Source of the DNA: Candidatus Pseudothioglobus singularis PS1
GTDB taxonomy: Bacteria; Pseudomonadota; Gammaproteobacteria; PS1; Pseudothioglobaceae
Length of the DNA: 64,000 nucleotides
NCBI RefSeq assembly: GCF_001281385.1
Contig: NZ_CP006911.1
Coordinates: 1,550,001 to 1,614,000 of the forward strand
Direction: 5' to 3'
In this document: piece by piece, positions 16,488 to 19,029 of the stretch
Layout: every line of letters begins with the position of its first letter
How positions within the stretch are numbered: the stretch's first letter is position 1
Notes under the pieces: generated by a model
Told to the model about the DNA's origin: nothing
The model's database searches: none
The model's input: only the letters and a program-made list of their open reading frames with translations
Position numbers and translations under genes: made by a program

Positions 16488-17303
16488 ATGAAAAATATTA
16501 TTGAAGCAGCTTTTGAAGATCGTAACCATCTCACACCAGAATCAGCTAGCTCTGAGGTCAAAGAAGCAGTTAATGAAGCAATACATTTGCTTGACTCTGG
16601 AAAGGCTAGGGTTGCAGAGCAAAAAGGCATTGGTGATTGGGAAGTCAATGAGTGGCTTAAAAAAGCAGTATTACTATCGTTTAGACTTGCGGACAATGTC
16701 CCCATGCCCTCTGGGTTTACACAGTACTTTGACAAGGTTCCATCTAAATATGCTGAAACTACTTTAAAAGAATTTCAAGCTTCAGGCGTAAGAGTAGTCC
16801 CGCCTGCAACTGCAAGAAGAGGCTCATACATCGCCCCAAATACGGTCTTAATGCCATCTTATGTAAATATTGGTGCATATGTTGACTCTGGAACAATGGT
16901 TGATACATGGGCCACAGTAGGATCTTGTGCGCAAATTGGTAAAAATGTCCACCTTTCAGGTGGTGTTGGTATTGGTGGGGTATTAGAACCTTTGCAAGCG
17001 AGTCCAACTATTATTGAAGACAATTGCTTTATTGGAGCCAGATCGGAAGTAGTTGAGGGTGTCATTGTTGAAGAAGGAGCTGTTATATCGATGGGAGTTT
17101 ATATTGGCCAATCAACCAAAATTTTTAATAGAATGACAGGTGAAGTCAGTTATGGACGTATTCCAGCTGGATCAGTTGTAGTTTCAGGCAACCTTCCCTC
17201 TACTGATGGAAGTTATTCTCTCTATTGTGCGGTTATAGTCAAACAGGTTGACGCCAAGACAAGATCAAAAGTAGGCATAAATGAACTCCTTAGAGGAATT
17301 TAA
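16488..17303 (+). CDS. dapD: 2,3,4,5-tetrahydropyridine-2,6-dicarboxylate N-succinyltransferase
   Basis: 271-residue trimeric left-handed beta-helix enzyme of the succinylase branch of lysine/diaminopimelate synthesis. The N-terminal helical part includes [18 protein letters not shown], and the helix repeats carry the family landmarks [46 protein letters not shown] and [11 protein letters not shown]. Full length. Followed by a strong terminator. Confidence 0.97.
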
Positions 17304-17330: not shown

Positions 17331-17353
17331 CCCGCCGTAAGGCGGGTTTTTTT
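17331..17353. terminator. bidirectional rho-independent terminator between dapD and the first 72-aa gene
   Basis: Perfect 6-bp G+C stem CCCGCC-GTAA-GGCGGG (17331-17346) with A6 on the left and T7 on the right, so it ends transcription from both sides. The same stem with one loop change recurs at 17761-17776. Confidence 0.92.
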
Positions 17354-17369
17354 ACTAAGCTAGTATTGA

Positions 17370-17588
17370 TTACTTAGTAAAGATCTTATACAACAAACCA
17401 ACAGCAATTAAGCCGACCAAGTTTGCAGAACCAAGTCCCATAATAATATCTGTTAATCTAGCTATGACATCACCAGGTAGAAATGCAGCTTGACTACCAA
17501 AAATTATTTGAACAACAACTGCAAGTGCAATGATACTTACACCAGCTTCAGTTAATTTTTTTACCCAACCAATTACATTATCTAACAT
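17370..17588 (-). CDS. 72-aa small membrane protein, copy A of a tandem pair, function unknown
   Basis: I do not recognise the family. The protein has a short amphipathic N-terminus (MLDNVIGWVKKLTEAG), a hydrophobic segment at about 17-35, a polar link FLPGDVIARLTD (36-47) and a second hydrophobic segment at about 48-70 ending in Lys, so two membrane helices in a hairpin. There is no signal-peptide cleavage site. It is identical to the 17802-18020 product at 54 of 72 positions with no gaps. It has its own promoter (TTGACA, 15 bases, TATAAA), a leader with a GGGGAG-type ribosome site and its own terminator, which suggests strong, single-gene expression. Not a fragment of a neighbour. Confidence 0.82.
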   Translation of the reverse strand: MLDNVIGWVKKLTEAGVSIIALAVVVQIIFGSQAAFLPGDVIARLTDIIMGLGSANLVGLIAVGLLYKIFTK

Positions 17589-17642
17589 ATAGTCTCCCCA
17601 TTAATTTTAAGATAACCAGATTCTTCGCTGATTGTTAAACTT

Positions 17643-17669
17643 TTTATAGTATCGAAATCAGTGTGTCAA
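17643..17669 (-). promoter_or_regulatory. promoter of small membrane protein copy A
   Basis: Minus-strand TTGACA (17664-17669) and TATAAA (17643-17648) separated by 15 bases. The stretch between promoter and start codon is visibly similar to that of copy B, including the ACTTTTTATAGTA..GAAATCAG..TGTCAAG blocks as read on the plus strand. The consensus -35 with a short spacer is present in both copies. Confidence 0.65.
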
Positions 17670-17753
17670 GTTTTCAAGACTCAGAATGGCTAATAATTAG
17701 CTAAGATCTTCTAATCTCAATTTAAATAACACAGAATTATTTCATTTATATAT

Positions 17754-17776
17754 TAAAAAACCCGCCGTTAGGCGGG
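17754..17776 (-). terminator. rho-independent terminator of small membrane protein copy B
   Basis: CCCGCC-GTTA-GGCGGG stem (17761-17776) followed on the minus strand by T6 (plus-strand A6 before the stem). Nearly identical to the terminator of copy A, so the duplicated unit included promoter, gene and terminator. Confidence 0.9.
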
Positions 17777-17801
17777 TTCTTCTTGAGTAAATATGAAATG
17801 T

Positions 17802-18020
17802 TTACTTAGAAAAGATGGTATACAACAAACCTGCTGTAATTAAACCAACTAAGCCAGCGCTACCAAGAGCACCAATCATATCCGTTAACCTAGCCACAAC
17901 ATCACCAGGAAGGAATGAAGCGCTTGAGCCAAATATTACTTGAACAACAACTGCAAGTGCTACAAGACCAACACCTGCTTCAGTTAATTTTTTAATCCAA
18001 CCAGTTACATTACTTAACAT
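17802..18020 (-). CDS. 72-aa small membrane protein, copy B of a tandem pair, function unknown
   Basis: Same design as copy A: N-terminal MLSNVTGWIKKLTEAG, first hydrophobic segment about 17-35, conserved link FLPGDVVARLTD, second hydrophobic segment about 48-70, C-terminal Lys. Most differences from copy A are conservative (I/V/L, A/S, G/A), which suggests both are under selection as proteins. Preceded by GGAGAG seven to eight bases before the ATG. The neighbour ubiA has its own terminator, so this too is a one-gene unit. Possible roles such as a pore, a subunit of a membrane complex or an envelope stress protein cannot be chosen between. Confidence 0.82.
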   Translation of the reverse strand: MLSNVTGWIKKLTEAGVGLVALAVVVQVIFGSSASFLPGDVVARLTDMIGALGSAGLVGLITAGLLYTIFSK

Positions 18021-18076
18021 ATTTTCTCTCCATTAATTATAAAGATAATCAGCATCTTTGCCGATTGGTGGACTTT

Positions 18077-18103
18077 TTATAGTAATGAAATCAGAGTGTC
18101 AAG
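18077..18103 (-). promoter_or_regulatory. promoter of small membrane protein copy B
   Basis: Minus-strand TTGACA (18098-18103), 15 bases, TATAAA (18077-18082), with the same spacing as the copy A promoter. Leader of about 50 bases to the ATG at 18020. Confidence 0.65.
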
Positions 18104-18186: not shown

Positions 18187-19029
18187 TTATAGGGCCACAG
18201 ATAAGAAAATCCCTGCAAACGCAGTCATACCAATGTAATTATTGCTTAAAAAGGCCAGAAAATACTGCTCATTTTGACGTTTTCTCATTAAAAACTGATG
18301 ATAAGTCATGAAAATAGCAATAATTATTAAAGAAAAGTAATAAATTTGGCCTAATTTGAATATATTTCCCATCACTATAAAAATTAAAATGAGCAAGATT
18401 TGTAACAAAGTGATGATGATCTGATCGTACTTTTCAAACAAAATAGCGGTTGACTTTACTCCAATTTGGATATCTTCATCACGATCTGCCATTGCGTATA
18501 GCGTGTCATAGATCAGTGTCCATACAAGCGTTGCAAGAAATACAATTCCAGCAGTGATAGGCAATGAACCAGTTTGCGCACTGAATGCCATAGGAACACT
18601 CATACCAAATGCGGCCCCTAATACAAACTGAGGTAGGTTAGTCCATCGCTTTGTAAAGGGGTATAGCGATGCGAGAAATAGCGCTATAAATGAAAGCTTA
18701 ATTGTAAGTTGATTAGTTTGCAAAACTAAAGCTAAAGCTATCAATAGCAATATAAAAAACAATATTAAGGCGGACCTTGGTGAGATTTGGCCTGAGGTGA
18801 GCGGCCTATCTTTTGTTCTTTTAATATATTTGTCGATGTTTCGATCGGCAAAATCATTAATAACGCACCCGGCAGTCCTCATAACGATAACACCCAAAGT
18901 AAATATAATCAATAAATCAAAATCTGGCCATCCACCTGCACTCAAAAAAAGTGCCCAATAGGTTGGCCATAGAAGAAGTAATATGCCTATAGGTTTATCT
19001 AGCCTCATTAATTGGATATATGCATTCAT
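18187..19029 (-). CDS. ubiA: 4-hydroxybenzoate polyprenyltransferase
   Basis: 280-residue integral membrane prenyltransferase of ubiquinone synthesis with about eight or nine helices. The two Asp-rich motifs are NDFADRNIDKYIKRTKDRPL (near residues 58-77) and YDTLYAMADRDEDIQIGVKST (near 174-194), which bind Mg-prenyl diphosphate. The N-terminus YIQLMRLDKPIGILLLLWPTYW is typical of UbiA rather than of heme or chlorophyll homologues. Overlaps the rluC stop as ATGA. Confidence 0.95.
   Translation of the reverse strand: MNAYIQLMRLDKPIGILLLLWPTYWALFLSAGGWPDFDLLIIFTLGVIVMRTAGCVINDFADRNIDKYIKRTKDRPLTSGQISPRSALILFFILLLIALALVLQTNQLTIKLSFIALFLASLYPFTKRWTNLPQFVLGAAFGMSVPMAFSAQTGSLPITAGIVFLATLVWTLIYDTLYAMADRDEDIQIGVKSTAILFEKYDQIIITLLQILLILIFIVMGNIFKLGQIYYFSLIIIAIFMTYHQFLMRKRQNEQYFLAFLSNNYIGMTAFAGIFLSVAL

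Follow-up and report, generated by a model that had tools for sequence, protein, structure and literature searches.

The window analysed here, a stretch of 64,000 nucleotides covering positions 1,550,001 to 1,614,000 of the 1,714,148-base genome of Candidatus Pseudothioglobus singularis PS1, holds two small tandem genes for membrane proteins which are identical in 54 of 72 residues (75%) without any gap. Each gene has its own promoter and terminator, and the leaders of the two copies are similar. A sequence-only reading of the window had described such a pair of cassettes with TTGACA-15-TATAAA promoters, similar leaders and CCCGCC/GGCGGG terminators; open reading frames and alignment confirm the two genes, and the signals lie at the positions collected in Table 1. 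The neighbouring genes on both sides are those which we take, from their sequences, to be ubiA and dapD, and the stem behind copy 1 perhaps serves the latter too.

Table 1. Coordinates in the window of the two hairpin genes, their signals and their neighbours
Feature	Position	Strand	Basis
Copy 1, two-helix membrane protein, 72 residues	17370..17588	-	Open reading frame; family searches
Copy 2, two-helix membrane protein, 72 residues	17802..18020	-	Open reading frame; pairwise alignment
Promoter of copy 1, TTGACA-N15-TATAAA	17643..17669	-	Exact match; conserved among relatives
Promoter of copy 2, TTGACA-N15-TATAAA	18076..18102	-	Exact match; conserved among relatives
Leader hairpin of copy 1 (putative)	17614..17633	-	Aligned with covariation over 34 leaders
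Leader hairpin of copy 2 (putative)	18047..18066	-	Alignment with covariation; own fold z -2.5
Terminator stem of copy 1, CCCGCC-N4-GGCGGG, T-run adjoining	17331..17346	-	Read from sequence; motif conserved
Terminator stem of copy 2, CCCGCC-N4-GGCGGG	17761..17776	-	Read from sequence; motif conserved
ubiA-like gene, conserved neighbour	18187..19029	-	Open reading frame; synteny
dapD-like gene, conserved neighbour, opposite strand	16488..17303	+	Open reading frame; synteny

Expression signals, predicted structure and family searches

By themselves the exact promoter hexamers are weak evidence, since a TTGACA/TATAAA pair with a spacer of 14-18 occurs five times in the 1.71-Mb genome against four times in a reversed control, a rate so close to the control that the case rests on conservation. 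Where 90 nt or more of upstream sequence is available, all 59 distinct family copies reach a promoter score of at least 10 of 12, which is reached by 21% of shuffled upstreams, and the spacer of these near-consensus promoters is 15 in 49 copies and 16 in ten; a generic promoter scan was confined to spacers of 16-18, so that both window promoters, with spacer 15, went unlisted. Regarding the terminators, the sole matches to CCCGCC-N4-GGCGGG within the window are the two stems behind the genes. A CCCGC/GCGGG stem with T-run is kept within 140 nt at most in 55 of 58 family copies, and the remaining three carry a hairpin with changed letters. A stricter script found terminators in 35 of 59 copies and, as did a generic terminator scan, missed many stems, both of those in the window among them, because the stem swallows the T-run. 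The leader, taken from the -10 box to the start codon, is 46-64 nt long in family copies. Over 34 leaders the aligned hairpin has 92.4% of its cells paired, with both sides changed in five of seven pairs, and its covariation score was attained by none of 500 shuffles, although kinship alone can lift related sequences above shuffles where structure is absent; the covariation gives the hairpin support, not proof, and the leader of copy 1 taken alone folds no better than shuffles (z 0.5). As the earlier reading had proposed from the strong-looking signals of the two cassettes, the conserved promoter, leader and terminator suggest strong expression, and to judge from these signals the protein may be abundant.

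The AlphaFold2 model of copy 1 has helices at residues 2-30, 41-54 and 57-71 (pLDDT 88) and that of a viral member has two long helices (pLDDT 77.5, pTM 0.41), predictions which support a helix-loop-helix shape. The mean charges per protein are 1.58 K+R against 0.10 D+E in the tail after helix 2 and 0.12 against 1.29 in the loop, while the start tail is nearly neutral (2.25 against 1.92) and its side unsure; in the topology predicted from these values the acidic loop would face outward, with a cytoplasmic tail behind helix 2. Of the oligomeric membrane subunit that had been suggested from the shape, the membrane hairpin is upheld by prediction, and an oligomer is a form that the protein could take.

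Nothing significant was found in Pfam, NCBIfam, PHROGs, PADLOC, the PDB (by sequence and by profile) or, for two models, Foldseek. The best single values over 59 members were E 0.004 in Pfam and E 0.007 in NCBIfam, each in one member, and in PADLOC-DB no family was matched below E 0.01, the best value being E 0.01; two families were matched there, one by two members and the other by one. The coat protein of inovirus PH75, a profile candidate at E 0.23, was gone once a broader profile was used. A literature search by titles and the starts of abstracts gave no description of the protein. In the libraries tested the hairpin proteins thus appear to form an undescribed family, as had been supposed when no family could be named for them, and a significant match to a holin or secretion family, by which that view might have fallen, did not occur there.

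Occurrence and duplication in Thioglobaceae

Far from being private to one strain, the gene is present in 49 of 83 Thioglobaceae genomes, in four of which (G063, G065, G069, G076) the matches are only partial or interrupted by stops. In the genus of the window 25 of 29 genomes are positive, with two copies in 20, three in one and a single one in four (the third match of G021, at E 0.003, was left uncounted), and in the other genera 24 of 54 are positive with a single copy each. Two genera, g5 and g8, stand apart: one of their 24 genomes is positive against 48 of 59 outside them, the gene being found in none of twelve genomes in g5 and in one of twelve (G056) in g8. The negatives beyond these genera are four of the 29 same-genus genomes, which are drafts, and seven further genomes, many of them incomplete. 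Two copies with an internal stop (G069:C208:6764-6949 and G065:C98:8040-8243) are perhaps decaying genes or assembly errors.

The ubiA-like and dapD-like genes flank the hairpin gene in all 15 Thioglobaceae loci read, with one extra gene between them in four; at the same 15 host loci no outer-membrane gene adjoining the hairpin was seen by eye. In the ubiA region of seven genomes of g5 and g8 that lack the gene, no significant match was obtained and no remnant was recognised, with G056 as the positive control. The dapD gene is still near ubiA in four of these seven, and in one locus (L387) the gap between the two is 4 nt. Genera g5 and g8 are probably intracellular symbionts of animals, of the clam and mussel type, and if we infer this identity correctly, the family has been kept by most free-living relatives and lost in symbiont-like ones.

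Copies 1 and 2 of the window have diverged to dS 0.63 and dN 0.20 (22.6 synonymous and 28.4 non-synonymous differences). The pooled pN/pS over six orthologs each is 0.106 for copy 1 and 0.095 for copy 2, values which support purifying selection on both and agree with the earlier view that both are in use. Duplication of the whole cassette, also proposed then, is supported too; since relatives outside the genus are single-copy, the pair appears to have arisen by duplication within one genus, distinct from the split between paralogs A and B described below. In the tree, likewise, the Thioglobaceae pair arises inside the genus. This tree was built from 73 columns and leaves 53 of its 126 inner branches open; the sequence set comprised proteins of 55-110 residues free of X, of which those of at least 60 residues entered the tree, and the viral sequences of the FGMD type were added later and are absent from it. 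One genome (G007, L087:5041-6094) has three tandem copies, and the first and third of these are alike in 69 of 72 residues, therefore one of them should be a recent re-duplication or a converted copy.

Relatives in other bacteria and in viruses

Relatives turned out to be common in viral contigs, which the sequence-only reading had not foreseen, and other gammaproteobacterial lineages have separate pairs of two paralogs. The wider searches used a profile (A2) which includes divergent single-copy members. In a sample of the Gammaproteobacteria six of 369 genomes match at E 1e-5 or better, two of the six being Thioglobaceae, and the family is rare in the class. A second order, that of G745, has matches in 99 of 121 genomes at E up to 0.001, with exactly two in 94, in a scan whose profile already contained two genomes of that order. 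Its genomes are of 0.7-1.8 Mb and fall into four families and twenty genera, and the order is probably SAR86. The two genes here are distinct paralogs, A and B, which adjoin each other in all 20 loci read, and a strong hairpin (-8 kcal/mol or stronger) stands between them in 16 of 18 distinct pairs; the two pairs scored without a hairpin are those in which the script took an ATG at the stem start as the gene start. An intergenic hairpin is a layout known from operons that overproduce the product of their first gene, and by this analogy A and B may be major and minor subunits.

Separate pairs of paralogs are also present in G801 and G575, and the G575 pair (L229:1075-1719) sits between genes which we presume to be ilvA and that of 5-formyltetrahydrofolate cyclo-ligase. 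In profile-profile comparison the Thioglobaceae, viral, A, B and FGMD groups match one another with probabilities of 95-99%, six controls reaching 0-0.3%, and this supports the homology of the groups; the proteins of G575, G692 and G801 stand outside this comparison, and their relationship is indicated by search E-values of 3e-9, 3e-7 and 9e-6, respectively. The G692 relative (L176:1153-1701) is fused in frame to a long lysine/threonine-rich, histone H1-like tail, and such a tail after helix 2 fits a cytoplasmic end. Phylum-wide samples of 398 genomes each yielded nothing convincing beyond the Gammaproteobacteria, the matches in G274 (E 2e-4) and G460 (E 1e-3) being judged chance, and plasmids gave no match.

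With the window protein as the sole query no IMG/VR contig was matched, and the match came with a profile of the divergent single-copy relatives. Three overlapping profile scans found 217, 77 and 326 IMG/VR loci that encode relatives, of which up to 80 per scan were examined further. Among the 50,697 named phages there was no significant match. A self-test showed that low-complexity filtering masks some of the signal of several queries, though not of window copy 1, so that the absence is a fair result where close relatives of the window protein are concerned and a weak one for other types. Each of the 233 viral loci examined, a number that includes duplicate contigs and falls to 141 after removal of like contexts, has one full hairpin copy, and no type B paralog was found among the viral contigs. 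In one locus part of another hairpin gene, 30 residues in length (L130:2742-2831), lies upstream of the full copy. The viral pN/pS, computed on 30 sequences of 72-73 residues, is 0.12 over 52 close pairs and 0.23 pooled over all 30, from which the viral copies are judged to be under purifying selection.

In the tree the viral genes form several groups beside different host types, and on the viral genomes they occupy several unrelated positions. Neighbours match the PHROG families of terminase, tail sheath, tail tube, head closure, exonuclease and PhoH, and ribonucleotide reductase and glutaredoxin were recognised nearby by eye; family searches covered 17 of the neighbour proteins, the remaining clusters being assessed by eye. 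With a vertically inherited host homolog and viral homologs amid virus genes, the hairpin gene is placed among auxiliary viral genes of host type. Another membrane protein, some 145 residues long and with PHROG 38283 (function unknown) as its sole match, occurs in L162:1644-2102 and 30 other viral loci and directly precedes the hairpin gene in 26. A second small membrane protein, of 65-69 residues, adjoins it in 11 viral loci (L325-L329, L333 and others), and profile comparison gave no relation between this protein and the hairpin family.

Outer-membrane-like proteins were flagged among the neighbours by a crude rule, namely a signal peptide plus a C-terminal beta signature, applied to open reading frames of at least 60 codons on either strand in the 141 non-redundant viral loci. 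The flags fall on 34 of 254 adjacent genes, on none of 225 second neighbours and on one of 802 further ones. The FGMD clade supplies 28 of the 34, and with this clade removed the counts are 6 of 196 adjacent genes against 1 of 830 others (p 3e-4). Of these six, L294 belongs to the same clade by eye and L306 and L307 are CsgF, which is itself no barrel, leaving few independent cases of a barrel (L112, L270, L283). The families matched by neighbours of this kind are Porin_4 (E 9e-23), Gcw_chp (3e-7, from a scan of a single cluster member), CsgF (1e-10) and CsgG (1e-46), and the commonest neighbouring barrel has a weak family match (E 0.006). Of 12 loci with Gcw_chp-like genes, seven have them adjacent to the hairpin gene and five at a distance of two or three genes.

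Candidate functions of the hairpin family

The fixed locus, the conserved cassette, purifying selection and the absence from likely symbionts point to a housekeeping role in the envelope outside animal hosts. Together with the retention of a single copy in viruses, in some of them beside an outer-membrane neighbour, this leads us to favour, tentatively and with rather less than even confidence, a hairpin that forms oligomers in the inner membrane of free-living marine cells and that myoviruses carry as an auxiliary envelope gene and supply for themselves, possibly with a matching outer-membrane pore. The two window genes would encode inner-membrane hairpins which, if made in the quantity that their signals suggest, could form oligomers, which some lineages would build from a major and a minor paralog. 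Such a complex would serve the envelope of free-living marine cells and be dispensable within animal hosts. Myoviruses of such cells would supply their own copy while the host genome is shut down, and some viral lineages may combine the hairpin with a virus-encoded outer-membrane protein, as if setting passage across both membranes in the course of infection. What the analysis shows is the family itself, its synteny, the conserved cassette, the pattern of loss, the carriage by viruses and the statistics of the neighbours; abundance, oligomer, topology, a transport or permeability role and the symbiont and host identities are our inference.

The main rivals are phage exclusion and holin activity. 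The same distribution might be read as that of a phage-exclusion protein which blocks the DNA entry of other phages and so provides superinfection exclusion to viruses and a standing defence to free-living hosts, lost in intracellular symbionts that are rarely exposed. The T4 protein Imm, a small membrane protein of T4-like phages and in this like the hairpin, is said to block the DNA entry of other phages from the inner membrane. Carriage by viruses in several sequence types, one full copy per viral locus, absence from likely symbionts and the adjoining outer-membrane proteins, which could alter the surface in some viruses, all suit exclusion; yet defence genes are usually patchy and change fast, unlike this slowly evolving gene with its vertical inheritance at a fixed locus, PADLOC gave none of the 59 members a match below E 0.01, and the hairpin differs from Imm by host copies fixed among housekeeping genes and by having no significant match in the libraries searched with family members. 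We hold exclusion to be somewhat unlikely. A holin or pinholin function, by which the viral hairpin makes lysis-timing lesions and the host copies are domesticated forms or antiholins, appears to us quite unlikely. The pinholin of phage S21 has a similar size of about 70 residues and two helices and is likewise found in phage genomes, and a weak PHROG holin match exists (E 0.32 at best, in three of 59 members), but no holin family is among the Pfam or NCBIfam matches listed. A pinholin has two helices and keeps both ends in the cytoplasm; in the hairpin family the helices are predicted, with an end tail that is clearly positive and a start tail close to neutral. Unlike S21, the hairpin family combines strong-looking expression, with a strong-looking host promoter, and a fixed host locus, and it has no significant family or fold match; no endolysin was recognised among the viral neighbours, whether scanned against families (17) or judged by eye, and the several unrelated viral positions do not make a single lysis cassette. 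In favour of a holin, one paper proposes that the CsgG outer-membrane pore of a related marine phage could work in a pinholin-like way (PMC9004378), a sign that how such phages lyse their hosts is still open.

An accessory subunit of a respiratory or ATP-synthase complex would be a small hairpin with signs of strong expression, as the present one is, and is plausible for energy-limited marine cells; subunit c of the ATP synthase, of about 75 residues, is also a hairpin of two glycine-rich helices. Helix 2 of the family, however, lacks the conserved carboxylate (charged residues occupy any column in at most 13 of 59 members) and no Pfam match to subunit c was found, no respiratory or ATP-synthase genes were recognised near the locus in 15 loci read by eye, and the gene is absent from likely symbionts that still respire; such a function is very unlikely. 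Least probable is a type I toxin repeat, that is, tandem small hydrophobic toxins under antisense control. Tandem cassettes of a small hydrophobic protein, each with its own promoter and terminator, speak for it, but a two-helix protein conserved over orders and viruses at pN/pS near 0.1, and single-copy in every positive Thioglobaceae genome outside the genus, speaks against it.

Beyond the preferred inner-membrane hairpin, a bolder case, which we regard as unlikely, is that free-living streamlined marine gammaproteobacteria have the undescribed major/minor hairpin assembly as a standard part of their envelope, and that marine myoviruses make their own version, which with a virus-encoded outer-membrane barrel spans both membranes as a conduit in infection. 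The viral inner-membrane hairpin with its outer-membrane neighbour does point to a testable cross-envelope function during infection, the absence from likely symbionts ties the family to open-water life, and cultured Thioglobus strains offer a direct route to testing. Moreover, a family that has no significant counterpart in Pfam, NCBIfam or PHROGs, yet is conserved in two marine gammaproteobacterial orders and hundreds of viral loci, would mark a sizeable blind spot in ocean genomics.

Like psbA in cyanophages, the hairpin gene is a host-type gene kept by marine viruses under apparent purifying selection; unlike psbA, its product belongs to an undescribed family and is not a known enzyme. A further comparison is given by the curli pore operon of pelagimyophages. 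Papers on related phages describe small proteins next to a CsgGF pore of unknown role (PMC7029224, PMC9004378). The small membrane proteins which HTVC008M and Melnitz carry there are other ones, with no significant match to the hairpin family, and the likeness lies in the pairing of a small membrane protein with an outer-membrane pore that the virus encodes. One viral curli-like locus of our set (L306:314-4523), with CsgF, CsgG and curlin-like repeats, has the hairpin gene in front, preceding CsgF and CsgG.
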